From positions 62,001 to 126,000 of the forward strand of contig CALIMJ010000010.1 in NCBI GenBank assembly GCA_938028835.1: a stretch of DNA of 64,000 nt, given 5' to 3'. Of this stretch, positions 46,754-64,000 are shown one piece after another (positions within the stretch are counted from its first letter, which is position 1; each line of letters begins with the position of its first letter). This DNA is from an uncultured bacterium (GTDB lineage Bacteria > Sysuimicrobiota > Sysuimicrobiia > Sysuimicrobiales > Sysuimicrobiaceae). The translations under genes were made by a program, and so were the position numbers. The notes beneath the pieces are model-generated. The model saw nothing but the letters and a program-made list of their open reading frames with translations. It was not told the origin of the DNA and did no database searches.

Positions 46754-47587
46754 GTGCGCGTCCTCGCGTACCCCTCTTGGCTTGAGCCGCTCCGCGCCCG
46801 GGGCGCACAAGGCCGGGTGCTGGCCACCTTCCGCCGCAGCGCCTACGTGGCCTTCTCCGGGCTCGAGGAGGCGGTGGCCGCGCTGGTGGCGCCAGACCTC
46901 GGTCGGGGGCCGTTGAGTCTGCCGACCGACGGCGTCTTATGGGCGTGCCTGCGGCCCGGGGATCCCGTGCGGATCGCCTCCTCCTGCCTGCAAGCGGGCG
47001 ATCAGACTCTGCACCTGGACGGTGCGGAGCCGTGGGACCCTACGCTGCCCCGCGTCCGGCCCCAGCCCGCACAGGTGCGCCGTTGCTGCGAGTGGCTGGT
47101 GGCGTCGGCTCCCCCGGAAAGCCTCGCACCCGTGGTCCCCCACCTGGTGGAAGGCCGCGGCCCCGCCCTACGCGACTGGCAGCGAAGGGCTCTGGAGGGA
47201 GCCCAGGCCCTCGCTGCGGGTGCGTATGCGTCCGGCTGCGAGCTGCTGTGCGGCCTCGGCCCAGGGCTCACGCCCAGCGGGGACGACTTCCTGTGCGGCT
47301 GGATGCTGGCCCTCTACCTGCACGGCCGGCCGCGGGAGACGCTGCTGCAACACGTGCGGGGCACCCACCGCATCGCCCGAGCCTACCTGCGGGCCGCCGC
47401 CGCCGGGTTTGCCTCCGAAGCGTGGCACCGCTTCGCGGCCTCCCTGCAAGGAGGACACTGGGTCGCGGCCGCTCGGGAGGTCCTGTTGGCCGGTGAGACC
47501 TCCGGCGCGGACACCCTCGCGGGCTTCCTGGCGGGACTGGTGGCTGGCGCGGGCTCCCGACCGGCTCGGTCCGTCCCGGTACCGTAG
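46754..47587 (+). CDS. DUF2877 protein (AllH-like, oxamate carbamoyltransferase type)
   Basis: A 277-residue DUF2877 protein. Its family signature ELLCGLGPGLTPSGDDFLCGWMLALYLHG is at about 163-191, with a nearby THRIARAYLRAAAAGFASEAWH and GETSGADTLAGFLAGL. E. coli YlbF (AllH) belongs to this family and works with FdrA (AllF) and YlbE (AllG, DUF1116) in the carbamoyl-transfer step of allantoin breakdown. Genes for the other two partners lie at the end of this window (61.5-64 kb). Here it is attached to the molybdenum hydroxylase operon, 6 bp after the iron-sulfur subunit. GTG at 46754 has no strong ribosome binding site, fitting coupling. Confidence 0.85.
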   Translation: MRVLAYPSWLEPLRARGAQGRVLATFRRSAYVAFSGLEEAVAALVAPDLGRGPLSLPTDGVLWACLRPGDPVRIASSCLQAGDQTLHLDGAEPWDPTLPRVRPQPAQVRRCCEWLVASAPPESLAPVVPHLVEGRGPALRDWQRRALEGAQALAAGAYASGCELLCGLGPGLTPSGDDFLCGWMLALYLHGRPRETLLQHVRGTHRIARAYLRAAAAGFASEAWHRFAASLQGGHWVAAAREVLLAGETSGADTLAGFLAGLVAGAGSRPARSVPVP

Positions 47588-47590
47588 AAT
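47585..47590 (+). promoter_or_regulatory. Probable -10 element (TAGAAT), leaderless start for the lipid-kinase gene
   Basis: TAGAAT in ACCGTAGAATGGGC lies exactly six bases before GTG 47597, so the predicted transcription start falls on the start codon. It overlaps the end of the DUF2877 gene. No good -35 is seen. Confidence 0.4.
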
Positions 47591-47596
47591 GGGCTT

Positions 47597-48571
47597 GTGG
47601 TGCAGCCGCTGCTTCTGGTGGTCAACCCGTACGCGGGTGGCGGACGGATCGCGGACGCGCTGCCCCTGGTGACGCGGGTGCTCCGCGGCCGGGGCGTGGC
47701 CTACGAGGTCCAGCAGGCCGCGGGCTTCCACGCCCTCGCGGAGGCCGCGGAGCGCGGCAGCCGGGCCGGGTTTCCCGCGGTGGTGGCGGTAGGCGGGGAC
47801 GGCACCGTAAACGCGGTGGTGAACGGGGTGATGCGGGCAGGCGGACGCAGTGCGGTGGGGATCATTCCCGCGGGCACGGCCAACGAGTTCGTGCGGGGGT
47901 TGCCCATCCCTCGGAGCCTGCAGCGGGCCACGCAGGCCCTGATCCACGCGGAGCCCGCGGCCTTCGATGTGGCGGAGGCCAACGGCCGATTCTTCGCCAA
48001 CGTCTTCGGGATCGGCTTCGACGCGCGGGTGGCGGTGGGCGCGAACCGCCTTCGGGACCGGCGCATCCTGCGGGGCCGCGCGGTCTACTTCCTGGCGAGC
48101 CTGCTGGAGCTGGTGGGCGGCCGCGACCCCCTCGAGGTAGAGGTCACCACCGAGTCCGAGCGGTTTACGGGCCGGGTCTTGCTGGTGGCGGTGGTGAACG
48201 GACGCATGTACGGAGAGCGGGTGGCCGCTCTGCCCACCCCGAGTCTCCGGGACGGGTTGCTGGACCTGTACATCATCCAGGAGATGCGCCGCATGCGATC
48301 CCTGAACGCGGCGCTGAAGATGCTCCGCAGATCCCCCCTCCCGGAAATCGTGATCCAGAGGTGCCGCCGGGTCACCGTGGACGCGGACCGGCCCGTGGAG
48401 ACCCACGTGGACGGGAACCCCATGGAGGCAGCGCGGAGGATTCAGGCCCGGGTGCTCCCCCGTGCCCTGCGGATCCTGCTGCCGCCCGACTCCCTTCCGT
48501 GGAAGGCCGCGGAGGACGCCGGCCAGTGGACCCCGGGAATCGCGCCGGCGATCTCCGGGGAGGTCCCGTAG
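47597..48571 (+). CDS. Diacylglycerol/sphingosine kinase-family lipid kinase (YegS/DgkB-like)
   Basis: A 324-residue kinase of the DAGK catalytic family. It begins QPLLLVVNPYAGGGRIADAL; the nucleotide-binding GGDGTVN is at 66-72, followed by GIIPAGTANEFVRGLPIPR. The C-terminal beta domain carries FFANVFGIGFDARV, VAVVNGRMYGERVAALPTPSLRDGLLDLYIIQ and a final THVDGNPM. It should phosphorylate diacylglycerol or a similar lipid at the membrane surface. It lies 3 bp from the glycosyltransferase gene, which uses diacylglycerol-type acceptors, so the two may act on the same lipid pool. GTG at 47600 is an equally possible start. Confidence 0.9.
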   Translation: MVQPLLLVVNPYAGGGRIADALPLVTRVLRGRGVAYEVQQAAGFHALAEAAERGSRAGFPAVVAVGGDGTVNAVVNGVMRAGGRSAVGIIPAGTANEFVRGLPIPRSLQRATQALIHAEPAAFDVAEANGRFFANVFGIGFDARVAVGANRLRDRRILRGRAVYFLASLLELVGGRDPLEVEVTTESERFTGRVLLVAVVNGRMYGERVAALPTPSLRDGLLDLYIIQEMRRMRSLNAALKMLRRSPLPEIVIQRCRRVTVDADRPVETHVDGNPMEAARRIQARVLPRALRILLPPDSLPWKAAEDAGQWTPGIAPAISGEVP

Positions 48572-48574
48572 GCC

Positions 48575-49738
48575 ATGGATCGCGTCCCTTCCTCCCAGGT
48601 GCCGTCCTTCCTGGTGCTCTCCGCCTCCTACGGGGGCGGACACCAGCGGGTGGCGGAGGTCCTGGCAGACGCCTGGCGCCGCTCGTTGCCACGGGTCCGG
48701 GTGGACGTGGTAGATTTCTTCGAACAGTTCGTGAACCCCGCGGTGAACCGGCTCACCCGATCCCTGTACGTCCGCAGCGTCCGTCACGCGCCGCGCCTGT
48801 GGGGCGCGTTCTACTACGCCACCGGCAACATCCGACCGGATTCCCCCACGCAGCGGTTCATCAACCGCCTGGGGAAGACCCGGCTGCTGGCGTACCTCCG
48901 GCAACGCGGCCCCCACGTGGTCGTCTCCGTTCACCCCACACCCGCGGGCTCCCTGTCCGAGCTCAAGGGGGAGGGGAAGGCGTCGCAACCCTCCGCGGTG
49001 GTGCTGACCGACTACGCGGTGCACTCCCAGTGGATCCACCCGCACGTGGACCTGTACTGCGTGGCTTCCGAGGAGGTCCGCGCAGGACTGACCGACCGTG
49101 GGGTGCCGGCCAGCCGCATCCGGGTCACGGGCATCCCCGTGGATCCCGCGTTCGCACAGCCGGTGGACCGGGCCCAGGTGGCAAGCCGGCTGGGCGTGGA
49201 CCCTGCGCGGACCACGGTGCTGGTGATGGCGGGGGCCTACGCGATGCTGGGGGGCATCCTGGATGTCCACCGGGCGCTGTCGGCGCTCCCACAGCCGGTC
49301 CAGGCGGTGTTCGTGTGCGGGCGGGACGAGGCGTTGGTGGCGCGCCTGAGGCAGCGCAGCCGGCGCCGGCCGGACTTCCACGTGTACGGGTTCGTGTCCA
49401 ACGTGCACGAGTGGATGGCGGTGGCGGACCTGCTGGTGACCAAGGCCGGCGGGATCACCGTGTCCGAGGCGTTGGTGCGGGAGCTGCCCATGGTCATCTA
49501 CCGCCCCATCCCCGGCCAGGAGGAGTGGAATACGCGGATGCTGGTGGCCTCCGGAGCGGCACGGGTGGCGCGGGACCCGGAGGAGCTCCGGCGGGTCGTG
49601 GTCCAGCTGGTGAGCGACCCCGCGGCGCTGGAGTCCATGCGGGCCGCGGCCCGGAGGGTGCGCAGGCCCCGAGCGGCCCAGGAGGCCGCGGAGGCGATCA
49701 CCCAACTTCTCCCGGAGGCGTTGCGGGGTGCGCGGTAA
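48575..49738 (+). CDS. GT28-family glycosyltransferase (MGDG synthase/UgtP-like)
   Basis: A 387-residue glycosyltransferase of the MurG/MGDG-synthase fold. The N-terminal domain starts FLVLSASYGGGHQRVAEVLADAW, the S-A-S-x-G-x-G-H motif of MGDG synthases and UgtP, then VDVVDFFEQFVNP. The C-terminal donor-binding domain has VLVMAGAYAMLGGILDV, FVSNVHEWMAVADLLVTKAGGITVSEAL and PIPGQEEWN. It would move a hexose from a nucleotide sugar to diacylglycerol, making membrane glycolipid. It overlaps the MFS gene by 11 bp. Sugar donor and anomeric outcome cannot be read from sequence. Confidence 0.9.
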   Translation: MDRVPSSQVPSFLVLSASYGGGHQRVAEVLADAWRRSLPRVRVDVVDFFEQFVNPAVNRLTRSLYVRSVRHAPRLWGAFYYATGNIRPDSPTQRFINRLGKTRLLAYLRQRGPHVVVSVHPTPAGSLSELKGEGKASQPSAVVLTDYAVHSQWIHPHVDLYCVASEEVRAGLTDRGVPASRIRVTGIPVDPAFAQPVDRAQVASRLGVDPARTTVLVMAGAYAMLGGILDVHRALSALPQPVQAVFVCGRDEALVARLRQRSRRRPDFHVYGFVSNVHEWMAVADLLVTKAGGITVSEALVRELPMVIYRPIPGQEEWNTRMLVASGAARVARDPEELRRVVVQLVSDPAALESMRAAARRVRRPRAAQEAAEAITQLLPEALRGAR

Positions 49739-50933
49739 CCGCGCCGCCTCCCACGCGGCCCTGGTGGGACTTGTGGAGTGCGCCCGCGGCGCGCTCCTGT
49801 TCACCCTCCTACCCAACCACCTGCGCTTCGGCGTCGGACACGGAATGTCCGTGGTGGGGCTCACCCTCTCCGTTTACTACCTGTCGGAGCTGGCCCTGAA
49901 GGTCCCGTCCGGGTGGCTGGTAGACCGCTGGGGTCGGCGGCTTCCGGTCGTGGCGGGGCTTTCCCTGACCCTGCTAGCTACCCTGCTGTTCGCTCGGCTG
50001 GAAGCGGTGTGGGCCTTGCTGGTGGCGGCGGCGGTGGGTGGGGCGGGGGCCTCCCCCGTCTGGCCCGCGGTGGTGAGCGGCGTGGCGGACGCCACGGAGG
50101 AGGGCGGCCGGGGCAGCGCCATGGGCGCGGTGTTCACCAGCTGGCTGGTGGGGACCGGGTTGGGGTTCGTGCTGGCCAACTTCCTCCTGGAGGTGCACAC
50201 CGCAGCGGCTTTCGGGCTGGTGGCCGCCTGCCAGCTGGCGGCCCTAGCCTTGGCAGGCCGGCTGGAGGCCCGCTCCCGCGGCCACGTACAGGAGGAGCTG
50301 CGGGAGTCGGTTCACGACGTAGAGCTCACCGCGGGACGTCTGTGGCCCCTGGTGGCGGGGATGGCGGTGCAGACGCTGGCCATGGGCATGCTGGTGCCCA
50401 CCCTGTCCCCCTACGCCCGTGAGGTCCTGAAGCTCACACCCCTTTGGATCGGGGTCCTGCTGCTGGCGGGCCCCGGCCTCACGGTGCTCTTGCTAGTTCC
50501 CCTGGGTCGCCTCATCGACCGCCTGGACCGGCTGGAGGTGCTCCCGATGTGCATCGGAGCAGGAGCCGCCGTGCTTTTCGTCCTCCCCTTCTTCCGGTCC
50601 CTGTGGATCTTGATCCCGCTGGTTGCGATCCTGGGACTCGGCTACGCCACCATGCTTCCCGCGTGGAATGCCCTCTTGATGGACCTGCTGCCCCCTGCCC
50701 GGCGCGCCACCCTCCTGGGCCTCGCGATGTCCATCGAGGGCGCCGGGGTTGCCCTGGGTACCGCCCTCGGCGGGGTCCTGTGGGATGCCATGGGGCCCTC
50801 TGCTCCGTTCCACGCCGCCGGACTGTTCCTGTTCCTGGTGGCGGTCAACTACCTCATGCTGCTGCCCCGTTCCCTGGAACCCGTGCTACGGCGGAAGAAC
50901 GCAAGGGGCGGCTGGCAGCCCAAAGAGGGGTGA
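49728..50933 (+). CDS. Major facilitator superfamily transporter
   Basis: A 401-residue membrane protein with twelve predicted helices. The inter-helix 2-3 MFS motif is present as GWLVDRWGRRLPVV; a related GRLIDRLDRLEVLP lies between helices 8 and 9. Other conserved parts are SPVWPAVVSGVADATEEGGRGSAMG and GLGYATMLPAWNALLMDLLPPARRATLLGLAMS. Substrate unknown; in context of a glycolipid synthase and a lipid kinase, a lipid-linked or drug-type substrate is possible, and LtaA-like glycolipid flippases are MFS proteins adjoining UgtP-like enzymes. GTG at 49728 overlaps the glycosyltransferase stop. Confidence 0.88.
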   Translation: MRGNRAASHAALVGLVECARGALLFTLLPNHLRFGVGHGMSVVGLTLSVYYLSELALKVPSGWLVDRWGRRLPVVAGLSLTLLATLLFARLEAVWALLVAAAVGGAGASPVWPAVVSGVADATEEGGRGSAMGAVFTSWLVGTGLGFVLANFLLEVHTAAAFGLVAACQLAALALAGRLEARSRGHVQEELRESVHDVELTAGRLWPLVAGMAVQTLAMGMLVPTLSPYAREVLKLTPLWIGVLLLAGPGLTVLLLVPLGRLIDRLDRLEVLPMCIGAGAAVLFVLPFFRSLWILIPLVAILGLGYATMLPAWNALLMDLLPPARRATLLGLAMSIEGAGVALGTALGGVLWDAMGPSAPFHAAGLFLFLVAVNYLMLLPRSLEPVLRRKNARGGWQPKEG

Positions 50934-50935
50934 GC

Positions 50936-52195: not shown

Positions 52196-52212
52196 CGCCG
52201 CCAGTGTACACC

Positions 52213-53136: not shown

Positions 53137-53140
53137 GCCT

Positions 53141-54334
53141 TCAGGTACCTACACCCACCACGCCGAGACGCTGGAGTTCCTCCACCTCCTCTTCGCTGTA
53201 CCCCAGCTCCCACAGGACGGGCCGCGTGTGCTGGCCCAGCAGGGGCGGCGGGGTCCGCACCGAACCCGGGGTGTCCGAGAACTTGATAGGCACCCCCGTT
53301 ACGGTGATCCGCCCCGCCTTCGGGTGGTCGAGCTCCACCCGCATCTGCCGGTGCAGGGTCTGCGGGTCCTGAAACACCTGGGAGACGGTGTAGATCGGGC
53401 CGCAGGGAACGCCCGCCGCCTCCAGGATCTGGACCCACTCCCGGGTAGGGCGCTGGCGGAAGCGCGCCTCCAGCAGCGGGACCAGCTCGTTGCGGTGACG
53501 CACCCGGTCGGCGTTGGCACGGAAACGCTCGTCGTCCGCCAGCCGGGGGTCTATGACCTCGCAGAACCGCTTCCAGATCGCCTCACTCCCCACCGCCACG
53601 TTCAGGTACCCGTCCTGGGTCTGGAACGCCTGGTACGGGCACAGGTTCGGGTGCGCGGAACCCATTCGCACTGGGTCCTGGCCCGTGGCGAAGTAGTTGG
53701 CGGCCGCGTAGGTGAGCCACGCCACCTGTCCGTCCAGCAGGGATGCGTCCACCCACTGGCCCCTGCCCGTGCGCTCCCGTACCCGCAGGGCCGCGAGGAT
53801 CCCGAATGCCGCGAACATCCCCGCGCAGATGTCCGCCACCGCCACGCCGACCTTCACCGGCGGGCCGTCCTCCTCCCCGGTGATCCCCATGATCCCGCCC
53901 ATCCCTTGCAGGATGAGGTCGTAGGCAGGCTTCTCCCGGTAGGGTCCGGTCTGCCCGAATCCGGAGATGGAGCAGTACACTAGACGCGGGTACCGGTCGT
54001 GCACCGACGGGTAGTCCAACCCCAGGCGCTCCATCACCCCCGGCCGGAAGTTCTCCACCAGCACGTCCGCCCGCTCCAGCAACCGGTGCAGTACCTCCAC
54101 CCCGCGGGGGTGCTTGAGGTTCAGCGCCACCGACTCCTTGTTGCGGTTGACGCTCATGAAGTACGCACTCTCGCCCTCCAGGAAGGGCGGACCCCACCCC
54201 CGGGTGTCGTCCCCGCCCTCCGGGGATTCCACCTTGATCACCCGGGCGCCCAGGTCCGCCAGCATCATGGTGCAGTACGGCCCCGCCAGCGCCCGGGTGA
54301 GGTCCACCACCACCACGTCGTCCAGGGGCTGCAC
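53141..54334 (-). CDS. Family III CoA-transferase (formyl-CoA transferase-like)
   Basis: A 397-residue family III CoA-transferase. It starts QPLDDVVVVDLTRALAGPYCTMMLADLGARVIKVESPEGGDDTRGW, then YFMSVNRNKESVALNLK, ENFRPGVMERLGLDY, ISGFGQTGPYREKPAYDLI and catalytic D168 in AVADICAGMFAAFGIL. The glycine-rich QGMGGIMGITG loop is as in formyl- and succinyl-CoA:dicarboxylate transferases. It begins 1 bp after the cyclase stop, so the cyclase product or a related acid may be its substrate. It is only about 40% like the other CoA-transferase in this window by eye, so the two are paralogues with different partners. Confidence 0.92.
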   Translation of the reverse strand: MQPLDDVVVVDLTRALAGPYCTMMLADLGARVIKVESPEGGDDTRGWGPPFLEGESAYFMSVNRNKESVALNLKHPRGVEVLHRLLERADVLVENFRPGVMERLGLDYPSVHDRYPRLVYCSISGFGQTGPYREKPAYDLILQGMGGIMGITGEEDGPPVKVGVAVADICAGMFAAFGILAALRVRERTGRGQWVDASLLDGQVAWLTYAAANYFATGQDPVRMGSAHPNLCPYQAFQTQDGYLNVAVGSEAIWKRFCEVIDPRLADDERFRANADRVRHRNELVPLLEARFRQRPTREWVQILEAAGVPCGPIYTVSQVFQDPQTLHRQMRVELDHPKAGRITVTGVPIKFSDTPGSVRTPPPLLGQHTRPVLWELGYSEEEVEELQRLGVVGVGT

Positions 54335-54335
54335 G

Positions 54336-55172
54336 TCACTCCCGCACGAAGGCCACGAACCGGCAGAACGCCGCCTCCCCGCCCTTGAACCGGAAGGGGA
54401 AGGCGCCCACCCACACCCGGCGGTTCAGCACGAGGTCGATGTCGCCGCCCACGTTCTCCACGTGGAACACCCCTCGGGGGAACAGCTTCGTGTGGGTGGC
54501 CTGGTAGTCCCGCGGCCAGGGGAACGCCTCCTCCAGGGCCATGCCGATCTTGCGTTCCACTTCCGGGATCAGGTCCCGGCGTGCCTCCCGGACCTTGGTG
54601 TTGAAGGGGTGGTCGGTGGAGATGGCGTCCACCGCCAGCCAGCGGATCTTCCGGTCCAGGACCCACTCGCAGAACTCCGCCCGCGGCCCGGGGTGCCTGA
54701 GGAAGGACCGCGGGAGATCCGGCGCCGCGTCCGGGTGGCGCTCCTTCGTGTGGGGGGACCAGTCCTCGTTGTAGTAGGCGTGGTAGCCCGTGTGGATCAC
54801 CAGGATGTCGTCGGGTTCGATCCGGATGCCCGTGCGCCGCTCCCACTCCTCGAAGTGCTGGGGACCGTAGATGTCGTAGTCCCCGATCCCGAACTGCTGC
54901 AGGTCCACGATGCACGCGGGCCCCACGAGCCGCTCGATGGGGATCCCGGAGATGTCCGGGCCCGGGTCGTAGAAGTGCAGGGGGGAGTCCAGGTGGGTGG
55001 CGATGTGGTTGGTGGTAGACAGGTGCTGGGCGTTCACCCCCTCGAAGGCGATCTTCTTCACCCACTTGATGGTGGGCCCGTCGTAGTAGGCGAAGGGCGG
55101 GGAGTCCATGCTGAAGTTCTGGGAGAGGTCCAACACCCGACAGCCCCGTAGGTCGAACAGGTCGAAGGCCAT
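54336..55172 (-). CDS. Cyclase-family metal-dependent hydrolase (kynurenine formamidase/isatin hydrolase fold)
   Basis: A 278-residue cyclase-family (PF04199) protein. It starts FDLRGCRVLDLSQNFSMDSPPFAYYDGP. The metal motif H-x3-H-x-D-x-P-x-H is clear in TTNHIATHLDSPLHFYD. DILVIHTGYHAYYNED and WLAVDAISTDHPFNT follow, the latter typical of larger cyclases. Members hydrolyse N-formylkynurenine, isatin and other cyclic amides or lactones. ATG at 55172 follows GGAGGTGAG; the frame to 55187 adds five residues without support. It is paired with the CoA-transferase gene downstream. The true substrate is unknown. Confidence 0.87.
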   Translation of the reverse strand: MAFDLFDLRGCRVLDLSQNFSMDSPPFAYYDGPTIKWVKKIAFEGVNAQHLSTTNHIATHLDSPLHFYDPGPDISGIPIERLVGPACIVDLQQFGIGDYDIYGPQHFEEWERRTGIRIEPDDILVIHTGYHAYYNEDWSPHTKERHPDAAPDLPRSFLRHPGPRAEFCEWVLDRKIRWLAVDAISTDHPFNTKVREARRDLIPEVERKIGMALEEAFPWPRDYQATHTKLFPRGVFHVENVGGDIDLVLNRRVWVGAFPFRFKGGEAAFCRFVAFVRE

Positions 55173-55238
55173 ACGCCTCACCTCCATAGCCCGGGATGGG
55201 ATTTCCTGTACGCGGTCGGAGCCGCGTCCTCCTGCGGC

Positions 55239-56978
55239 TCAGGGCGCTTCTGACACTTTCGGGGCGGGCCGGCGAAGCCGGCGCGCCACGCCCTCCCGCA
55301 GCTCCTCCAGTTCCTCCTGCAGCACCACCTTCCAGTACGCCCCCACCTGGCCGATGTGACGGTACCGGCGGTAGCGCTCCCGCAGCAGTCGCCGCAGGGG
55401 CTGGGCCTGGACCTCCCGGAGGGCGTCCACTAGGTGGTCCCGCAGCAGCTCCGCGGCCTTCTGGGGGTCCGTGTGGGCGCCCCCCGGAGGCTCCGGCACC
55501 ACTCGATCCACCACCCCCAGGCGCTTCAGATCCGAGGACGTCAGCCGCAACGCTTCCGCTACCTCCGGCGCACGGCCGGCGTTCCGGTACAGGATGGCCG
55601 CCGCCCCCTCCGGGGAGATGACGGAGTAAATGGCGTGCTCCAGCATCAGCACGCGGTCCGCGGTGGCCAGGGCCAGGGCTCCGCCGCTGCCCCCTTCCCC
55701 GATCACCACCGCCACCGTGGGGACCGGCAGCGCCACCATGGTGGCCAGGCATTCCGCGATGGCCACCGCGATCCCCCGCCGCTCCGACTCCGGCCCAGGG
55801 TACGCCCCAGGCGTGTCTACCAGCGTCACCACCGGCAGCTGGAACTTGCTCGCCAGACGCATCACCCGGCAGGCCTTCCGGAAACCTTCGGGAAGGGCCA
55901 TGCCCCGCCGGCGTCGCGCCTGCTCGTCTTCCGTCCGCCCTCGCTCCTGGGCCAGTACGAACACCGTCTGGCCCGCGAGCTCCGCTAGCCCCGTCACCAC
56001 CGCAGGGTCGTCCCCGGAAGCCCGGTCCCCGTGCAGTTCCACGAACCCGTCGAACACCCGGGACAGGTAGTCCACGGACGTGGGCCTCCCCACGCGGCGC
56101 GCCAGCTGCACCGTCTCCCAAGCGGACAGGTATGCGGGCTCCGGCAGGGGTGGCAGCTGCGGCCGGGCGGCGCGTCCCGTCGGTGCGGGGCGCAGGTGCC
56201 GCAGCAGGTAGCTCAACACCCTCCGCTGCTGTCCCCGCGGCACCACCATGTCCAACAACCCGTGGCGCAGCAGCGTCTCCGCTCGGTAGGCCTCCTCCGG
56301 GGCCGCCTCGCCCGTGGTCATCTCCACCACCCGCGGACCCACGAATCCCACCAGGGCCTCCGGCTCCGCCACCAGCACGTCGGCCCGCACCCCGAAGGAC
56401 GCCGCTACCCCGCCGAAGGTGGGGTTCGCCAGCACCGCGATGTACGGGAGCCCCGCGGAGTGGTGCTGCCCCGCCGCCGCCGCCGTCTTCGCCATCTGCA
56501 GCAGGGACAGCATCCCCTCCTGCATCCGCGCGCCACCCGAAGCGGTCACCGCGATTACCGGAAGCCGTTTCCGGGTGGCCCCCTCGAAGGCCCGCGCTAC
56601 CTTCTCCCCCACCGCGGACCCCATGGTGCCTCCCAGGAACCGGAAGTCGAAGGCCACCAGCACGAAGGGTTGGCCGTCCAGGGTCGCCTGGCCGGTCACC
56701 ACCGCCTCCCGCAAGCCCGTCAGGTGCCGCGCCTCGGCCAGACGTTCCCGGTACGGCTTCTGGTCTGTGAAACCCAGGGGGTCCACCGACGTCAGGCCCC
56801 GGTCCCACTCCCGGAAGGACCGAGCGTCTGCCAGCTGCGCCACCCGCAGGGAAGCCGGCATAGGCAGGTGGGCGTGACAGTTCGGGCACACGTACCAGGA
56901 AGCCGCCAGCACCGACTCGTCCACCGAGTTCCCGCACCGCGGGCAGCTCACCTGGGCCAGCGTCTTCCGCTCCGCCAT
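55239..56978 (-). CDS. Acetyl-CoA carboxylase carboxyltransferase, fused beta-alpha subunits (AccD-AccA)
   Basis: A 579-residue single-chain carboxyltransferase. The first half is AccD-like: the four-cysteine zinc ribbon (C12, C15, C31, C34), GFTDQKPYRERL, FRFLGGTMGSAVGEK and SGGARMQEGMLSLLQMAKT. The second half, from about 290, is AccA-like: RPTSVDYLSRVFDGFVELHGDR, ERGRTEDEQARRRRGMALPEGFRKACRVMRLA, TLVDTPGAYPGPESERRG, GEGGSGGALALATADRVLMLEHAIYSVISPEGAA. It transfers carboxyl from biotin to acetyl-CoA to give malonyl-CoA for fatty-acid synthesis. The two are separate genes in most bacteria. Biotin carboxylase and carrier genes are not in the window. ATG at 56978 follows GGGAGAAG. Confidence 0.94.
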   Translation of the reverse strand: MAERKTLAQVSCPRCGNSVDESVLAASWYVCPNCHAHLPMPASLRVAQLADARSFREWDRGLTSVDPLGFTDQKPYRERLAEARHLTGLREAVVTGQATLDGQPFVLVAFDFRFLGGTMGSAVGEKVARAFEGATRKRLPVIAVTASGGARMQEGMLSLLQMAKTAAAAGQHHSAGLPYIAVLANPTFGGVAASFGVRADVLVAEPEALVGFVGPRVVEMTTGEAAPEEAYRAETLLRHGLLDMVVPRGQQRRVLSYLLRHLRPAPTGRAARPQLPPLPEPAYLSAWETVQLARRVGRPTSVDYLSRVFDGFVELHGDRASGDDPAVVTGLAELAGQTVFVLAQERGRTEDEQARRRRGMALPEGFRKACRVMRLASKFQLPVVTLVDTPGAYPGPESERRGIAVAIAECLATMVALPVPTVAVVIGEGGSGGALALATADRVLMLEHAIYSVISPEGAAAILYRNAGRAPEVAEALRLTSSDLKRLGVVDRVVPEPPGGAHTDPQKAAELLRDHLVDALREVQAQPLRRLLRERYRRYRHIGQVGAYWKVVLQEELEELREGVARRLRRPAPKVSEAP

Positions 56979-57069
56979 CGCGCTTCTCCCTTCCGCCAGC
57001 GTCTCTTTGAGGCGGACGCCCTCTCCTGTGAGCGTACCACTTCCGCGGTCCGGACCCGCGGACCGGCCG

Positions 57070-58050
57070 CTAGCGCCGCTCCACGATCCGGTCGGTCACC
57101 TCCTCGATGCGCTCCTGGCGCAGCACCACCGCCCGCCACACCTCCTGCACCCGGCGGGACACCTCCGGCGGCACGTTCCTCGGCGGGGTGAGGCCGAAGC
57201 CCGCTCCCGGCCGCATCTCGTAGTAGCCGGACCGCCGGCCCGCCAGGATCTGCCGGACCACTTCCACGTAGGGCTTGCCGAAGTTGGACACCAGGGAGGT
57301 GGTGAAGTGCTGGGGCGCGTAGCTGCTCTTGTCGGTGTAGAAGGTGGTCAGGAGTACCGGCCGCCGGGCGGCCCGGGCCGCCTCGATGACGCCCACGGTG
57401 CCCAAATTCACGCTGATCACGATGAAGTCCACCCCCGCGGCGATCTGGGACTCCGCGGCCTGTCGGGCCTTCACGGGGTCGTTCTGGTCGCCCACGAAGG
57501 TGTACAGGACCTCCGCCCGGGGGTTGTACTTACCCACCGCCTGGAACACCGCGTTCAGCGACGCGACGAAGTCTGGCAGCCGGATCCCGGCGATGTAGCC
57601 GACCTTGTTGGAGCGGGTGCCCAGGGCTCCCAGAACCCCCAACACGTAGAAGCCCTCGTAGAACTTCCGGCCGATGTTCCACACGTTGGCGGGTAGGTTG
57701 GGGATCTGCCCAGCGGACTCCATGATGAAGGTGGCGTCCGGGAACAGGGGTGCCAGCTTCTGCACGATGGTGAGGTACTGACCGCCGTGGAACGCCACGA
57801 TGCTGTAGCCCGCACCCAGGTACTCACGGGCCACCCGCTCTGCGTCCGCCACCGCCACCTGCTCGGAGTGCGCGGTCTGCACCCCCGTGGTGGACTGCAC
57901 TTCCTTCAAAGCCTGGTAGCCCACCGCGTTGAAGTCCGCGTCCTGGATCACCCCCGGCAGGATCATGGCCATCCGGGGCCGGGCCGGACCCGCGCCGGAG
58001 GGCCCGGCCACCACCAAGACCGCCACCAGCATCCACAGGAGCCTTCGCAC
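57070..58050 (-). CDS. BMP-family ABC transporter substrate-binding protein (PnrA-like)
   Basis: A 326-residue exported receptor of the basic membrane protein (BMP/PnrA) family, whose known members bind purine nucleosides. A signal peptide (about 1-22) ends before GPARPRMAMILPGVIQDADFNAVGYQALKEV. The ligand pocket region holds SEQVAVADAERVAREYLGAGYSIVAFHGGQY, RSNKVGYIAGIRLPDFVASLNAVFQA and the hinge ARPRV-type segments. No lipobox Cys is evident. GTG at 58050 follows a perfect AAGGAGGTGAC, 25 bp after the second permease. It is the last gene of the operon, whereas this gene usually comes first. A 7-bp hairpin without T tract (57046-57065) lies just after it. Confidence 0.9.
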   Translation of the reverse strand: MRRLLWMLVAVLVVAGPSGAGPARPRMAMILPGVIQDADFNAVGYQALKEVQSTTGVQTAHSEQVAVADAERVAREYLGAGYSIVAFHGGQYLTIVQKLAPLFPDATFIMESAGQIPNLPANVWNIGRKFYEGFYVLGVLGALGTRSNKVGYIAGIRLPDFVASLNAVFQAVGKYNPRAEVLYTFVGDQNDPVKARQAAESQIAAGVDFIVISVNLGTVGVIEAARAARRPVLLTTFYTDKSSYAPQHFTTSLVSNFGKPYVEVVRQILAGRRSGYYEMRPGAGFGLTPPRNVPPEVSRRVQEVWRAVVLRQERIEEVTDRIVERR

Positions 58051-58075
58051 GTCACCACCTCCTTCCATGGGTTCC

Positions 58076-59014
58076 CTATGCACGCGCCTCCCGGTGGTAC
58101 GGCTTCCCGAGGGCTTCCGGTGCCCGCGCGCCCCGGTAGGCCCGGACCAGCACCGCCACCGCGAAGGCGTAGGGTAACATCTGCAGGAACTGAGGCGGAA
58201 CCGCCCGGCTCACCATCGCCAGCTTGAACTGTAGCGCCTCCACGTACGCGAACAGCAGGGCCCCCGCGGCGGCCCCCGCGGGCGTCCACCGGCCGAAGAT
58301 CACCAGCATCAGCGCGATCCACCCCCGGCCGCCCGCGATCCCCTCCGTGAAGGTCCCCGTCAGGGTGAAGGGGAGGCTGGCACCCGCCAGCCCCACCAGA
58401 GCCCCACCCGCTGCCGCCGCCGCCTTGCGCAGACGGAACACGTCCACGCCCACGGTGTCCGCAGCCACGGGGTTCTCACCTGCCGCCCGCAGCCGCAGCC
58501 CCAGGCTCGTCCGGAAGAGGACTAGGTGCACCCCCGCCACCACGGCGGCGGACAGGTAGACCAGGGCGTGTTGGCTGAACAACACCTCGCCCACCAGGGG
58601 GAGCCTTCCCACACCGGGCAGGAGCAGGGGTTGTAGGGTCTCCACCCGCGGGGGCGTGAGCCGGACGCCCACCACCACCCGGTACAGGAGGGACGACAGC
58701 CCCAGGCAGAGTACGTACAGGGTCAGGCCCACGGTCACCTGCTCCTGCCTCCACGCCACCGCGTAGTGGGCGAACACCACCGCTACGACCACTCCGGACA
58801 GCGCCGCGGCCAGCAGCCCCAGTCCCGTGCTCCCCGCGGCGAAGCTGGCGAGAAACGCCGCCGCGGCTCCCAGGGTCACCATCCCCTCGATGGCCACGTT
58901 CAGCAACCCGGACCGCTCCATCAGGATCTCGCCCGCGCTGGCCAGCACCAGGGGCACCGACATGGCCACCGCGAGGCGGAACAGGGAGGGGTCCAGGAAC
59001 AGCTCCCAGCTCAC
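58076..59014 (-). CDS. Nucleoside-type ABC transporter permease (YufQ/NupQ-like)
   Basis: A 312-residue permease of the branched-chain-amino-acid/ribose/nucleoside group. It begins LFRLAVAMSVPLVLASAGEILMERSGLLNVAIEGMVTLGA, the S-G-x-x-N-x-x-x-E-G motif of BMP-system permeases. It includes GLRLRAAGENPVAADTVGVDVFRLRKAAAAAGGALVGLAGA, the loop docking to the ATPase, and GRGWIALMLVIFGRWTPAGAAAGALLFAYVEAL. GTG at 59014 overlaps the stop of the other permease (GTGA). The two permeases form the membrane pore with the double-domain ATPase. Confidence 0.92.
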   Translation of the reverse strand: MSWELFLDPSLFRLAVAMSVPLVLASAGEILMERSGLLNVAIEGMVTLGAAAAFLASFAAGSTGLGLLAAALSGVVVAVVFAHYAVAWRQEQVTVGLTLYVLCLGLSSLLYRVVVGVRLTPPRVETLQPLLLPGVGRLPLVGEVLFSQHALVYLSAAVVAGVHLVLFRTSLGLRLRAAGENPVAADTVGVDVFRLRKAAAAAGGALVGLAGASLPFTLTGTFTEGIAGGRGWIALMLVIFGRWTPAGAAAGALLFAYVEALQFKLAMVSRAVPPQFLQMLPYAFAVAVLVRAYRGARAPEALGKPYHREARA

Positions 59015-60045
59015 GGCGCGCCCCGCCGCACGCCCTCCGCGGCCAGCAAAACCAGCAACACCACTGCCTGCACCACGAACACAGCGCTGGACGGCAGACC
59101 CACGCTGCGCTGCAGGGAGTCCGTCCCCACCAGGAGGGCCGCGAAACCCATAGCCGCCGGCACCGCTAGCACCGGGTGCCGGCGGCTGAGGACCGCGATC
59201 AGGATGGCCATCATTCCGTAGCCGGGCGAAAGCCCCAGGATGAGCCGGTAGTGGAACCCGCTCACCTCCACCGCGCCTGCCAGCCCCGCCAGTCCTCCGC
59301 TCGCCACCAGCGCGACGCCCACCGCCCGACGGACGGGCACGCCACCCAAGAGCGCCGCGGAGGGATTGTCTCCCGCAGCCCGCAGCTCGTAGCCGAAGAC
59401 CGTACGGAACAGCAGCCACCACACCCCCACCGCCGCGGCCAGGGCCAGCAGGATCCCCGCGTGGGCGCCGGCGCGGGGCCACAGGTAGGGCAAGGTGGCC
59501 TCCGGGGGAATGGCCCGGGTGATGGCCTCCCCCGCGGTGGGGTCGTTCCACGGCCCGGTGCTCAGGTACTCCACCAGGAACACCGCCACGAAGTTCAGCA
59601 TCACCGTGACGAAGATCTCGCTGACCCCCAGCCGTGCCCGCAGCACGCCCGGTAGCGAGCCCCACACGGCTCCCCCCGCCAGGCCCGCCAGCAACACCAC
59701 GGGCAGGACCGCGGCCTTCGGCGCTGTCCACAGGAGGAAGGCCGCGCCCGTGGCGGCCACCGCGCCCGCGTAGATCTGCCCGTCCACCCCGATGTTGAAC
59801 ACGCCGCCCCGCAGCCCCAGGATCACCGCCAGGCTGCCCAGCAGGAGCGGCGTAGTCTTGTTGAGGGTCTGGCCCAGCCCCGCGCCACTACCCAGGGAGG
59901 CCCGAACGAGGCCCGCCAGGGCCTGGGAGGCGTCCCCGCCCAGCATCGCCACCAGAGCGGCCAGGAGAACCAGGGCGATCGCGAGGGCGCCCGCGTACGG
60001 CCACACCACCTGCCAGCGGCCACGCGCCGCGGCCTCCGTGGTCAA
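59011..60045 (-). CDS. Nucleoside-type ABC transporter permease (YufP/NupP-like)
   Basis: A 344-residue permease. Its long N-terminal region has a first helix (ALAIALVLLAALVAML). Then come LNKTTPLLLGSLAVILGLRGGVFNIGVDGQIYAGAV, with the N-x-G-x-x-G-Q motif of the family, LRARLGVSEIFVTVMLNFVAVFLVEY and GYELRAAGDNPSAALLGGVPVRRAVGVALVASGGLAGLAGAVEV (ATPase contact loop). TTG at 60045 overlaps the ATPase stop (TTGA). Partner of the other permease in the BMP importer. Confidence 0.92.
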   Translation of the reverse strand: MTTEAAARGRWQVVWPYAGALAIALVLLAALVAMLGGDASQALAGLVRASLGSGAGLGQTLNKTTPLLLGSLAVILGLRGGVFNIGVDGQIYAGAVAATGAAFLLWTAPKAAVLPVVLLAGLAGGAVWGSLPGVLRARLGVSEIFVTVMLNFVAVFLVEYLSTGPWNDPTAGEAITRAIPPEATLPYLWPRAGAHAGILLALAAAVGVWWLLFRTVFGYELRAAGDNPSAALLGGVPVRRAVGVALVASGGLAGLAGAVEVSGFHYRLILGLSPGYGMMAILIAVLSRRHPVLAVPAAMGFAALLVGTDSLQRSVGLPSSAVFVVQAVVLLVLLAAEGVRRGAP

Positions 60046-61556
60046 GCCGGCACGCCCCCCGTCATAGCCCGCCCGATGGCGTAGCGGTCGAACTGCTCCC
60101 TCGCAAACTCCGCCACCACGCGGCCTCGGTACAGCACCCCGATGCGGTCCGCCAGCTTCAGCAGCTCGTCTAGGTCCTCAGAGATCAGGAGCACCGCACC
60201 CCCCTTGGCGCAGAACTCCACCAGCCGCGCGTGCAGGAACTCGGTGGACGGTACGTCAAGACCCCGGGTGGGGTTGTGGGCCACCAGCAGCCGGGCCTCA
60301 CGCTCCCGGGCGGCGTCGAACACCCGCGCGGCGATCAGCCTCTGAAGGTTGCCCCCGCTGAGCTGCCCCGCGGCCGCGTCGGGTCCGGGGCAGACGATGC
60401 GGAACTCCTCGATCGCGTGGCGGGCAAGCCGCCGGCTGGTCTCCGGGTCGTAGCGGACACCCGGGAAGTACAGTCGGTGGCGTCCGAGGACCACGTTCTC
60501 CGCCACGCTCATCCGCGGCAGGATCCCGTCCCTCAGGCGGTCCTCAGGGATGGTCAACACGCCCGCCCGCATGCGGTCCAGCACCCCGTGCCGCTCCGCG
60601 GGCCGACCTCGGATGCGCAGCACGCCCGCCGCCGGCCGCGCGGTGCCCGCGACCACCGCGGCCAGGGCCTGCTGACCGTTCCCGCTGACCCCCGCCACGC
60701 CCACCAACTCACCCTCGCGGACGACCAGGCTGCAGCCGTCGAGGACCGCCACACCCCGCTCGTCCACCACCCGAACCGCTTCCAGCTCCAGGACCGGACT
60801 GCCCGGACGGGTGGCCTCCCGAGCCGGCGGCGGCGGAGGGGCGGTACCCACCATCCACTCCACCAACCGTACGGGGTCCGCCTCCCGCCGATCCACCGTG
60901 ACCACGCGGCGCCCTCGGCGCATCACGGTGACGCGGTCGCAGCTGCGCAGGACCTCGTGGAGCTTGTGGGTGATGAACACCACCGAGACGCCGGCCTCCA
61001 CCAGCGTCCGGAGGGACGCCAACAGTGCGTCCACCTCCTGGGGGGTCAGCAGGGTAGTGGGCTCGTCCAGGATCAGCACCCGCGCGCCGCGGTACAGGGC
61101 TTTCAGGATCTCCACCTTCTGCTGGACGCCCACCGGGAGGTCGCGGACACGCCGGTCCAGGGGGACGGCGAGGCCCACCCGCTCCATGAGGGCCTCCACC
61201 TCCCGCCGCAGCCGATCCGGCCGGAGCCACGCGCTTCCCTCCCGGCCCAGGATCACGTTCTCCAGGGCGGTGAAGTGGCCCACCAGCTCGAAATGCTGGT
61301 GAACCATCCCCACGCCCAACTGGACCGCGTCCCGGGGCTCCCGGATGCTGACGGGACGGCCGAGGACTTCCAAGTCCCCCGCGTCCGCCCGGTACAGCCC
61401 CGCCAGAACGTTCATCAGGGTGGTCTTGCCAGCGCCGTTCTCCCCCAGCAAGCCGTGGATCTCACCCGCCGCGAGCTCAAAGTCCGCGCCATCCAGAGCC
61501 ACCACGGGCCCGAAGCGCTTGTACACGCCCCGCAGCCGGACCAGGGGCGGGCTCAC
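60042..61556 (-). CDS. Nucleoside-type ABC transporter ATPase, two NBDs (YufO/NupO-like)
   Basis: A 504-residue double ATPase. NBD1 has Walker A GENGAGKT (38-45), the Q-loop GVGMVHQHFELV, signature LPVGVQQKVEILKAL and Walker B ARVLILDEPTTLLTP. NBD2 has a degenerate Walker A (GVSGNGQQ, lysine replaced), intact LSGGNLQ, and AHNPTRGLDVPSTEF. This pattern of one good and one altered site is normal for sugar and nucleoside importers. GTG at 61556 overlaps the stop of the DUF1116 gene, so transporter and metabolic gene are translated together. It energises the two permeases downstream. Confidence 0.94.
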   Translation of the reverse strand: MSPPLVRLRGVYKRFGPVVALDGADFELAAGEIHGLLGENGAGKTTLMNVLAGLYRADAGDLEVLGRPVSIREPRDAVQLGVGMVHQHFELVGHFTALENVILGREGSAWLRPDRLRREVEALMERVGLAVPLDRRVRDLPVGVQQKVEILKALYRGARVLILDEPTTLLTPQEVDALLASLRTLVEAGVSVVFITHKLHEVLRSCDRVTVMRRGRRVVTVDRREADPVRLVEWMVGTAPPPPPAREATRPGSPVLELEAVRVVDERGVAVLDGCSLVVREGELVGVAGVSGNGQQALAAVVAGTARPAAGVLRIRGRPAERHGVLDRMRAGVLTIPEDRLRDGILPRMSVAENVVLGRHRLYFPGVRYDPETSRRLARHAIEEFRIVCPGPDAAAGQLSGGNLQRLIAARVFDAAREREARLLVAHNPTRGLDVPSTEFLHARLVEFCAKGGAVLLISEDLDELLKLADRIGVLYRGRVVAEFAREQFDRYAIGRAMTGGVPA

Positions 61557-62794
61557 CGGGAAACCAGCTCCGCCAGAGCGCGGAGCGCCTCCTGGAAGGG
61601 TGCCACGGGTGGCCGCACCAGGCCGGCCCCGATCTGCCCCACGCCCGGCTCGCGGTGGGCAATGCCCGTGTTGACCCGGGGCGTGATCCCGGTCCGCACC
61701 ACCTTCCGGACGTCGATGGCCGTAGGAGTCCCCCGGAAGTCCAGCTGGGGGATGGCGAAGGCGGGGTTTTCCGTCAAGGTGATCTCGTACATCTCCAGGG
61801 TGGCGGCCAGGGCGTCCTGCGGGGTCCCCCCCACGAACCTCACGATGGCGGGTGCCGCGGCCATGGCAAAGGCACCGATCCCCGCCGTCTCCGTGATGGT
61901 GGAGTCGCCGATGTCGGGGTTGGCGTCCTCTTCCCGGAAGCCCGGAAAGTACAGCCCTCTCGGCACCGGAGCCGGGGCGGTGAACCACCGGTCTCCCAGG
62001 CCGGAAACCCGGATCCCGAACTCCGTGCCGTTCCGGGCCATACAGCTAACTACCGTGGACCCCGGTACACCGTGAGCCGCGTCCATGGTGGCCTTGCACG
62101 CCGCCATCACCGGGTTGAGGATGGCGAGGTCGTTCTCCGCCAGGTAGCGGAGCACACCCGTCAGCTCGTCTCGGGCAAGGCCGCAGTCCGCCAGGGAAGG
62201 GGCCAGCTGGCGGGCGAAGAGGCTGGAGCCCGCCACGTTCCGGTTGTGCCCTTCGTCCCCCATGGTGAGCTGCCGGGCGATGGTAGCCTTCATGTCCAGC
62301 CCGCCCATGCGCTGAAGAGCCTGCCCGAGTGCAGGCGCCACGGTCTCGTTGATCCACCGGAGCCGATCCAGGACCTCCGGCGCATACGCGCCGTACCGCA
62401 GCACCCGGCCGTAGCCCTCGTTGAAGTTGGCGTACGCGCGGTTGCCGTGCGTGCGGTTCTCCACGATGTAGACGGGCATGGACGCGGAGGTGACCCCCGC
62501 CATAGGGCCCACGGCCGCGTGGTGGTGGCAGGGCTCGAACCGCACGGCACCGGAGGCCGCCAGCTCCCCGGCCTCCCGTTCGTCCCGGGCCATGCCCTCG
62601 TACAGCAACGCGCCGATCACCGCCCCACGCAGCGGACCGCACATGCGATCCCAGGTGACCGGCGGGCCCGCGTGCAGGATGAGGTCCTTGCGCATCCCCG
62701 GAACCACGTCCAGGGCCCTGCCCACGCCCACCAGCACGGGGTGCGCATCCAGGATCCTCCGCACTACCACCTCGTTGGCCGCGTCCACATCCAT
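61553..62794 (-). CDS. DUF1116 protein (YlbE/AllG-like, oxamate carbamoyltransferase type)
   Basis: A 413-residue DUF1116 protein. It starts DVDAANEVVVRRILDAHPVLVGVGRALDVVPGM, then LHAGPPVTWDRMCGPLRGAVIGALLYEG, RFEPCHHHAAVGPMAGVTSASMPVYIVEN, MGDEGHNRNVAGSSLFAR and GIRVSGLGDRWFTAPAPVP, all conserved family blocks. E. coli YlbE (AllG) acts with FdrA (AllF) and YlbF (AllH) to make carbamoyl phosphate and oxamate from oxalurate. FdrA is the next gene upstream. ATG at 62794 follows GGAGG by 6-7 nt; the longer frame from 62830 has no ribosome site. Coupling to a nucleoside importer suggests purine-derived ureide use. Confidence 0.88.
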   Translation of the reverse strand: MDVDAANEVVVRRILDAHPVLVGVGRALDVVPGMRKDLILHAGPPVTWDRMCGPLRGAVIGALLYEGMARDEREAGELAASGAVRFEPCHHHAAVGPMAGVTSASMPVYIVENRTHGNRAYANFNEGYGRVLRYGAYAPEVLDRLRWINETVAPALGQALQRMGGLDMKATIARQLTMGDEGHNRNVAGSSLFARQLAPSLADCGLARDELTGVLRYLAENDLAILNPVMAACKATMDAAHGVPGSTVVSCMARNGTEFGIRVSGLGDRWFTAPAPVPRGLYFPGFREEDANPDIGDSTITETAGIGAFAMAAAPAIVRFVGGTPQDALAATLEMYEITLTENPAFAIPQLDFRGTPTAIDVRKVVRTGITPRVNTGIAHREPGVGQIGAGLVRPPVAPFQEALRALAELVSR

Positions 62795-62899
62795 GGGTTG
62801 CCTCCAGGTCCCTGGAAAGTCTGCATCCAACGGAGCACGGCCCCGGCAGGCGTTCCAGCCGCCGGGCCCTTTCCATCTTAACCGGAACCCAGGGCGGGT

Positions 62900-64000
62900 T
62901 CAGCCGCCCAGCCGCGAGAGCAGCTCCAGCAGCTCCGCGTCGCCCGCGGCAGGTGGCTTCCAGTCCACGGACACCACCGGAACGCCCTGCGACTCCAGGC
63001 TCTGGGCGAACGACTCCAGGCCCACGTTGACCGCCCGCACCGGTCCGCGGAGGAGTTCCCGCACCGCGGGGGATACCTCGTGGGTCATACCCTCTCCGTC
63101 CCGGAGGTCCACGGTGGGCAGCGGCCCCTGCTCGCTCGGGGCTCCGGCCCGGCCGCACAAAGCTCCCGCCACCCGGGCCGCCGCCGCGTTCGTGGGCGCC
63201 ACCAGTACCCCACGGCCCCGCAGCCGCTCCACCTGGCGCCCGTACGGCTGCGGGTCTAGCTCCGTCCCGCACACCGAGGCCACGCACACCAGCTCCCGCC
63301 CCGACCGCCGGGCGGTGCGCGTGGCCTCCTCCCACACCTGCGCCAGCTCGCCCGCGGGGTCCGGGTGCGCACCGAAGCCCAGCACCACGTCCACCAGCAG
63401 GACTGCCACCTCCGGATCCCGCGCCTCGTGCAACAGCCTTTGGCTGCGCACGGACGGGTCCAGCATCGGGTGCAGCCGCCCCACGGTGAACTCGTCGGAG
63501 CCCACGTCCACCACGGTGTGCTCCCGGCTCGCCAGCGGGTCCGGGAGCCGCGCGTCCGGGCTGAGAGGAACGTTGGACCACACCCGGCCGACACTCCCGC
63601 GCAGCACCAGTTGGGCCTCCGCGCACAGGCTGCCCCCCACGAATAGGCCCCGGAGCCACCGCTGGCCCACTGCCCACCGCACCCCCTCCGGCTCGGGCTC
63701 GCGCTCCGCCGGCGGGTGCCCGCCAGAGAGCCGGACCGCCAGGTGTGCCGCCTCCTCGAGGGTCGACGCGAAGTACAGATTCCCCACCTGAGGCGGCCCC
63801 TGCGCACCCAAGAAGTTCACCACCACCGGCTTGTCACACCGCCGGGCCAACGCAAGCACCCGCCTCGCCACCTGAGGGGACGGCGGCTTGGACAAAAGCA
63901 CCACCACCTCGGTGTCAGGATCCTCCGCCAGGGCCGTCAGGGCCGTGGCGAAGCTCGTCCCGCCTACCGGGTCGGACAGGTCGCGCCCGCCCGCGCCCAG
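62900..64000 (-). CDS. FdrA/AllF-like acyl-CoA-synthetase-fold protein (partial, N-terminus outside window)
   Basis: The frame is open to the last base, so the protein continues past the window; 366 residues of its C-terminal part are visible. It opens LGAGGRDLSDPVGGTSFATAL, like the succinyl-CoA synthetase alpha segment G-V-G-G-R-D-L. VVVLLSKPPSPQVARRVL, ASREHTVVDVGSDEFTVGRLHPMLDPSVRSQRL, VLLVDVVLGFGAHPDPAGELA and PVRAVNVGLESFAQSLESQGVPVVSVDWKPPAAGD follow, all FdrA landmarks. FdrA belongs to the succinate-CoA ligase-like family and is one part of the oxalurate-cleaving complex. It is first of the minus-strand operon and is separated from DUF1116 by 105 bp with no clear feature. Confidence 0.9.
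   Translation of the reverse strand: MGAGGRDLSDPVGGTSFATALTALAEDPDTEVVVLLSKPPSPQVARRVLALARRCDKPVVVNFLGAQGPPQVGNLYFASTLEEAAHLAVRLSGGHPPAEREPEPEGVRWAVGQRWLRGLFVGGSLCAEAQLVLRGSVGRVWSNVPLSPDARLPDPLASREHTVVDVGSDEFTVGRLHPMLDPSVRSQRLLHEARDPEVAVLLVDVVLGFGAHPDPAGELAQVWEEATRTARRSGRELVCVASVCGTELDPQPYGRQVERLRGRGVLVAPTNAAAARVAGALCGRAGAPSEQGPLPTVDLRDGEGMTHEVSPAVRELLRGPVRAVNVGLESFAQSLESQGVPVVSVDWKPPAAGDAELLELLSRLGG

Follow-up and report, generated by a model that had tools for sequence, protein, structure and literature searches.

A 64,000-nucleotide stretch of a draft Sysuimicrobiota genome (the window, G000:C10:62001-126000; genome of 2.16 Mb, 94.7% complete) encodes members of the AllF, AllG and AllH families. 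In Escherichia coli these form the oxamic transcarbamylase, an enzyme for which all three proteins are required (PMC11326118). The window genes stand in two separate runs, and oxalurate pathway genes and carbamate kinase are absent from the cluster, which raises the question of what compound the three proteins would act on. Judging from gene content and order, the two runs could together make up a single module for breaking down a ureide ring, with a pyrimidine as the leading candidate, a proposition that we consider evenly balanced.

Two gene runs encode the AllFGH families

Gene limits and operons were inferred from open reading frames and spacing. The families PF11392 (AllH), PF06545 (AllG) and NF004760 (AllF) were all found above their cut-offs. 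The plus strand carries the run CoxL-CoxG-CoxM-CoxS-AllH (42603-47587), whose junctions are overlaps or gaps of a few bases. The minus strand carries the run AllF-AllG-BMP importer-AccDA-cyclase-CaiB, which ends at 53141 and in which the four importer genes encode a PF02608 binding protein, an ATPase and two permeases. AllH and AllG are spaced by ~13,966 bases. Family models and gene order confirmed a preliminary description of this DNA, which had placed AllF and AllG at the head of a BMP importer operon and AllH (DUF2877) at the end of a hydroxylase operon ~14 kb from AllG. It had also called the importer operon overlapping, which holds for AllG and the BMP ATPase gene (~22 bases) and not for AllF and AllG (a gap of ~70-105 bases, depending on the start codon). 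The operon had been traced correctly through the importer, with the AccDA, cyclase and CaiB genes that follow on the same strand left out.

The gene set travels together in the class and is linked in three phyla

We examined 43 genomes of the class CSP1-3/Sysuimicrobiota; CSP1-3 was named Sysuimicrobiota in PMC11604079, the main text of which makes no mention of purine, pyrimidine, allantoin or xanthine. AllG was present in 38 of the 43 and AllH in 35. The two were found on one contig in ~19 genomes, 6-37 kb apart and on opposite strands; the split of AllFG from AllH is ancient and not an oddity. In 25 of 27 loci AllH had cox genes as same-strand neighbours, and the remaining two loci lie at sequence ends; a same-strand cyclase gene was located within 12 kb of the module AllG in 23 of 24, the exception being G001, where it lies 25 kb away. 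CaiB adjoined the cyclase in 21 of 26 loci, with AccDA within 6 kb in 20. Of the enzymes checked, the cyclase was the best conserved (72-97% identical to its window counterpart by alignment), and AllH was only ~32-41% identical outside the genus. The transporter was the variable part of the module: Dpp-type, Liv-type or NMT1-type genes were found across members instead of or besides BMP genes.

AllG, AllH and the cyclase were all missing from three genomes (G036, G037 and G042), perhaps through two independent losses and not three, G036 and G037 being sister genomes. The fused AccDA was likewise missing from these genomes, which retained separate accA and accD genes, indicating that it belongs to the module. 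A separate housekeeping accD and accA pair is located at G000:C13:49773-51507, and the presence of such a pair in class genomes ruled out the fused AccDA as the housekeeping acetyl-CoA carboxylase. Together, these patterns show that the hydroxylase, the cyclase, the AllFGH subfamily, CaiB and the second AccDA make up one co-travelling gene set across the class.

Outside the class, three Acidobacteriota loci (L131, L132 and L134) contained a single co-directional operon, CoxM-CoxS-amidase-AllF-AllG-cyclase-CoxL, and two others (L135 and L138, from genomes G046 and G047) had the order AMP-binding ligase-CoxM-CoxS-amidase-AllG-cyclase-CoxL. Apparent AllF fusions of ~1000 residues in the first three loci were rejected as over-extended frames, the upstream amidase gene lying in another frame. 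A Symbiobacterium-like genome (L158) contained the run CoxM-CoxS-CoxL-CoxE-AAA (CoxD)-XdhC-AllH (CoxL 74% identical), followed by a PucR-type regulator. Its AllF and AllG genes lie ~14 kb from this run and are divergent from a cyclase gene, which is followed by carbamate kinase and another, xanthine dehydrogenase-like hydroxylase. On gene order, the linkage of AllFG(H), the cyclase and the hydroxylase in three phyla is a firm result, and since the Acidobacteriota operon unites these genes, the set very likely serves one single pathway. The earlier view that carbamoyl transfer is joined to uptake and to a first oxidation was borne out by the class-wide conservation and by the sharing of one Acidobacteriota operon by the oxidation and transfer genes.

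The hydroxylase is of the form II Cox type

CoxL is labeled as an aerobic carbon monoxide (CO) dehydrogenase in NCBIfam (NF040766). Its active-site loop reads PYRGAGR, without the copper-binding cysteine of CO dehydrogenase (YRCSFR in 1n5w), and the cysteine of the AYxCSFR loop that marks form I CO dehydrogenases is thus absent. The catalytic glutamate motif GAKGAGE is retained, which together with the L, M and S subunits places the enzyme among the form II Cox-type members of the xanthine oxidase family. Form II enzymes are thought not to use CO under physiological conditions, and their true substrate is unclear (PMC6794299). Among the closest solved relatives of CoxL are quinoline and 6-hydroxypseudooxynicotine dehydrogenases, which are N-heterocycle enzymes, beside CO dehydrogenases. 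CoxL did not reach the curated xanthine dehydrogenase models (XdhA, 405 bits with a cut-off of 780; PucD, 301 with a cut-off of 784), and no curated cut-off supports its assignment as a xanthine dehydrogenase. The enzyme resembles other form II CoxL hydroxylases in its subunits, its glutamate motif and the lack of the active-site cysteine, and differs from them in being tied to ureide catabolism. Form II CoxL genes are common and are often annotated as CO dehydrogenase; the conserved tie to a ureide ring offers another role that can be tested and calls for care in trace-gas surveys.

A candidate ring opener and malonate-type partner enzymes

The preliminary description had noted that the classic ring-opening genes are absent, and no allantoinase exceeded its cut-off in this genome or its family. 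It had overlooked the cyclase, a candidate opener within the range that it covered, and likewise the malonate side. The metal-binding motif HxxTHxDxPxHF of the cyclase was invariant in 13 aligned sequences, and its relatives in the PDB include kynurenine formamidase and isatin hydrolase. Since isatin hydrolase hydrolyses a cyclic amide and kynurenine formamidase an aryl formamide, the opening of a ureide ring is a plausible role by analogy. The predicted structure of the cyclase (mean predicted local distance difference test score, 58.5) was too poor for a fold search and was not used.

Several partner enzymes were found in other members. A CodA-type cytosine deaminase, which passed two curated cut-offs (512 over 438 and 492 over 483 bits) and scored ~410 bits to E. 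coli CodA, was present at ~69% identity or more in ~16 class genomes and adjoined the cyclase in several. Among solved structures, malonamidase E2 was the best sequence match of the amidase in the Acidobacteriota operons, and in G041 a malonamidase-like amidase lies directly upstream of CoxL. For the AMP-binding ligase of two Acidobacteriota operons, the best family was malonyl-CoA synthase (480-498 bits, under the cut-off of 558), and the nearest structure was that of the malonyl-CoA synthetase MatB, at 373 bits, well ahead of oxalate-CoA ligase at 240.

The cyclase-AllG interval of G001 (L141:2159-18247) is a dense island of C-N hydrolases, encoding an ATZ/TRZ-type amidohydrolase, a nitrilase-family protein, a hydantoinase/carbamoylase-family amidase, another amidase and a CodA-like deaminase.

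A proposed route from pyrimidines to malonyl-CoA

A pyrimidine and a malonate end point are favored because of the CodA-type deaminase, the malonamidase-like amidase, the MatB-like ligase and the module-specific AccDA, which by family acts on malonyl-CoA/acetyl-CoA. Along such a route, uracil, formed from cytosine where the deaminase is present, would be hydroxylated to barbiturate by the Cox-type hydroxylase, and the cyclase would open barbiturate to ureidomalonate. Ureidomalonate and oxalurate are both N-acylureas, the former longer by one CH2, and the known AllFGH chemistry could thus carry over to the next step, in which AllFGH would use phosphate to split ureidomalonate to carbamoyl phosphate and malonamate. 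The amidase would free malonate and ammonia from malonamate, CaiB (or the MatB-like ligase in Acidobacteriota) would make malonyl-CoA, and AccDA could turn the latter into acetyl-CoA. A carbamate kinase encoded elsewhere could recover ATP from carbamoyl phosphate, so that the energy of the carbamoyl bond would be kept. The known oxidative route from barbiturate to malonate and urea gives off the carbon and nitrogen concerned as urea (PMC3758960; PMC7662398).

The linkage of the genes is strong, and that their substrate is a pyrimidine has, in our estimate, about an even chance. The energy-conserving oxidative pathway in full, with the form II "CO dehydrogenase" as uracil dehydrogenase, the cyclase as a new barbiturase and an AllFGH subfamily that splits ureidomalonate and feeds malonyl-CoA, is put forward tentatively, as somewhat less probable than that. 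If correct, such a pathway would extend to nearly all Sysuimicrobiota and would also occur in Acidobacteriota and Symbiobacteriaceae, and the module would provide candidate genes for oxidative pyrimidine steps that have no genes in the literature searched. We found no paper in the open literature searched that joins AllFGH to a form II hydroxylase, cyclase, CaiB and AccDA; subscription papers lay outside the search, and the result is not proof of novelty.

Comparison with known systems revealed both shared and distinct features. The module shares with E. coli AllFGH and AllK (PMC11326118, PMC9843812) the three protein families and, presumably, a phosphate-driven split of an N-acylurea that yields carbamoyl phosphate. 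It differs in that its AllG belongs to a separate clade, AllH lies in another operon, allantoin genes and a linked kinase are lacking, and a hydroxylase, cyclase, CaiB and AccDA are joined to it. The E. coli yahEFG-yahI-yahJ genes likewise encode DUF2877, FdrA-like and DUF1116 proteins, there alongside an amidohydrolase and a protein resembling carbamate kinase, and without a hydroxylase or cyclase; YahG is 51% identical and falls outside the module clade, and YahJ is only 26% identical to the CodA-like protein. With the oxidative pyrimidine pathway, as far as PMC3758960 relates it from Soong et al., the module would share hydroxylation, ring opening, N-acylurea cleavage and the malonate end point; it would differ in having a cyclase-family opener and no AtzD-type barbiturase, and in yielding carbamoyl phosphate and not urea. 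The association of AllFGHK with BMP importers is known and has been published for nitrifiers (PMC12625717): in metagenome-assembled genomes of comammox bacteria and Nitrososphaerales, allFGHK occurs with bmpA-nupABC. Those clusters differ from the module in that the kinase is linked and that either triuret/biuret genes or gatCAB are present, and no hydroxylase-cyclase-CaiB-AccDA set was reported for them.

A number of observations weigh against the pyrimidine route. No gene for a dehydrogenase or hydroxylase acting on uracil or thymine was found in the literature searched with which the specificity of CoxL could be compared. The cytosine deaminase is missing from the genome under study and from about half the class, and AtzD/Bar (PF09663), the single barbiturase family known, is absent from this genome and occurs in only two of the 43. 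Only a minority of class members have the amidase within the module, and the closest malonamidase-like amidase of this genome (45%) is encoded on another contig. With the deaminase and the AtzD barbiturase missing here and the amidase on another contig, the pyrimidine reading for this genome rests on its relatives. CaiB, whose closest solved structure is the succinate--hydroxymethylglutarate CoA-transferase 9br6 (399 bits), resembles transferases acting on larger dicarboxylates; AccDA may work in the carboxylating direction; and no malonate-specific cut-off was passed by the malonamidase-like and MatB-like proteins of Acidobacteriota or by AccDA of the class. Moreover, AllH was not detected in the Acidobacteriota genomes tested, its profile also had no match in the flanks searched, of Acidobacteriota and others, and AllF was likewise undetected in G046 and G047, although these drafts may be incomplete. 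As E. coli needs all three proteins, the Acidobacteriota enzyme is either simpler or has undetected subunits, or its AllG does something else. Finally, the PucR-type regulator after AllH in the Symbiobacterium-like genome could point to purines.

The module AllG forms a clade apart from E. coli AllG

A tree of 39 sequences united the module AllG proteins from the three phyla (100/99) and placed E. coli AllG outside them, with two paralogues of the class, L099 and L108 (97/93). The E. coli branches are long, which calls for caution; the gene contexts agree with the tree. The L108 paralogue (G001) lies beside an allantoinase (529 bits, cut-off 358) and a PucD xanthine dehydrogenase (870 bits, cut-off 784). 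The L099 paralogue (G033) lies beside an amidohydrolase nearest to hydantoin-5-propionate amidohydrolase and under the allantoinase cut-off. Both genomes carry the module besides the E. coli-type paralogue. No allantoinase exceeded the cut-off in the genome under study (best 209 bits, cut-off 358) or in its whole family, including the 100%-complete G035, and the module was nevertheless carried by five of the seven family members. The donor of the module AllFGH subfamily is probably not oxalurate, and the earlier suggestion of another compound as carbamoyl donor seems correct.

Two further AllG contexts were observed. At L099:9128-13914, the E. coli-type paralogue adjoins a class-V aminotransferase, a creatininase-like protein and a gamma-glutamyltransferase-family protein (possibly oxamate hydrolase), and this region is likely a true oxalurate branch. 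At L097:7664-12417, a third AllF-AllG type occurs with a linked carbamate kinase and a protein whose nearest match is the biuret hydrolase BiuH (280 bits, cut-off 370), an arrangement similar to the nitrifier cluster of PMC12625717.

These findings bear on a purine or imidazole substrate, the purine reading of the preliminary description. The hydroxylase would act on a purine or hydantoin, the cyclase would open a ring such as parabanate, AllFGH would convert oxalurate to carbamoyl phosphate and oxamate, and CaiB would activate oxalate. Activity of AllFGH on oxalurate/oxamate is proven (PMC11326118), BMP importers adjoin allFGHK in nitrifiers, CaiB is distantly like CoA:oxalate and formyl-CoA transferases, and the PucR-type regulator fits. 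We nevertheless regard this substrate as unlikely, given the presence of the module without allantoinase in this family, the separate E. coli-type paralogue with its own allantoinase and PucD-type enzyme, a hydroxylase below the curated xanthine dehydrogenase cut-offs and the malonate-type partner enzymes, which it leaves unexplained.

Other substrates and other chemistries

Another ring with an N-C(=O)-N unit, such as a substituted hydantoin, a modified pyrimidine or a vitamin-derived ring, the carbon skeleton of which CaiB and AccDA would handle, is slightly less likely again. The strong differences in transporter type between members, the best matches of CaiB to glutarate/hydroxymethylglutarate transferases and the closeness of the hydroxylase to quinoline and hydroxypseudooxynicotine dehydrogenases are consistent with it; the finding of cytosine deaminase and of malonamidase-like and MatB-like enzymes as partners in several members argues against it.

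It is improbable that AllF and AllG carry out another acyl or CoA-type transfer and no carbamoyl transfer, with AllH as an accessory of the hydroxylase. Such a role would suit the CoA-ligase-like domains found in AllF by Pfam, the grouping of AllH with the cox genes and not with AllFG, and the gene content of the Acidobacteriota drafts: in two of them AllG occurs with neither AllF nor AllH detectable, and in three more AllH is missing. Most class genomes have all three families, whose losses coincide, AllG is 51% identical to E. coli AllG, and the E. coli activity depends on the complete set (PMC11326118), all of which speaks for carbamoyl transfer. That the cox operon oxidises CO, with AllH beside it by chance, as the NCBIfam name of the large subunit might suggest, is highly improbable, CO oxidation being rejected on the active-site loop without the cysteine and the idea being contradicted by the AllH-cox linkage in two phyla and the single AllFG-cyclase-cox operon in a third.

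Carbamate kinase is encoded outside the module

Carbamate kinase had been named as a requirement of the carbamoyl-transfer reading, and the genome does encode one (G000:C6:111882-112805; TIGR00746, 365 bits, cut-off 358). Across the class, 22 of 43 genomes had a kinase above the curated cut-off, and more full-length copies scored just below. None was seen within the class module loci examined, the kinase genes being unlinked, and no full-length copy was found in the near-complete module genomes G023, G026 and G034. Carbamoyl phosphate could be converted to ATP by a kinase encoded elsewhere in the genome, or it may be destined for biosynthesis instead. The kinase gene adjoins a dehydrogenase gene that, by reading of the sequence, resembles 2,4-diaminopentanoate dehydrogenase (L005:1441-2385, L147:5439-6389), both here and in the module-less G036, and this kinase may serve mainly ornithine/arginine catabolism.

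Features of the two gene runs

Table 1. Genes of the two runs, with window positions, strand and supporting matches
Feature	Position	Strand	Evidence
CoxL, form II-type molybdenum hydroxylase large subunit	42603..44942	+	Pfam MoCoBD_1/2, Ald_Xan_dh_C; NF040766 1040 bits, cut-off 950
CoxG (SRPBCC) accessory protein	44936..45382	+	PF06240 90.7 bits
CoxM, FAD subunit	45382..46266	+	PF00941, PF03450
CoxS, [2Fe-2S] subunit	46259..46747	+	PF01799, PF00111
AllH (DUF2877), putative carbamoyltransferase subunit	46754..47587	+	PF11392 78.6 bits, cut-off 25; few bases 3' of CoxS
CaiB/BaiF family III CoA-transferase	53141..54334	-	PF02515 485 bits
Cyclase-family (PF04199) metal hydrolase, candidate ring opener	54336..55187	-	PF04199 115 bits
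Fused AccD-AccA carboxyltransferase, second copy	55239..56978	-	NF004344 AccA 362 bits, cut-off 357
BMP/PnrA-type binding protein	57070..58083	-	PF02608 103.8 bits
Importer permease B	58076..59008	-	open reading frame and conserved homologues
Importer permease A	59011..60045	-	open reading frame and conserved homologues
Importer ATPase, overlapping AllG end	60042..61574	-	open reading frame and conserved homologues
AllG (DUF1116), putative carbamoyltransferase subunit, module subfamily	61553..62794	-	PF06545 319.8 bits, cut-off 27
AllF (FdrA), putative carbamoyltransferase subunit	62900..64000, on to ~64657 (~657 bases past the window; L009:10400-12157)	-	NF004760 536 bits, cut-off 433

The best NCBIfam match of the BMP binding protein (61 bits) was far below the cut-off of 400. 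A tRNA-Pro reported by ARAGORN inside the AllG frame (61951-62048, minus strand) is probably a false positive. A second family III CoA-transferase gene, at window positions 37974-39122, encodes a protein 45% identical to the module CaiB and is unlinked to the module. Just past the window end, a second BMP importer operon (L009:12317-17172) is divergent from AllF.

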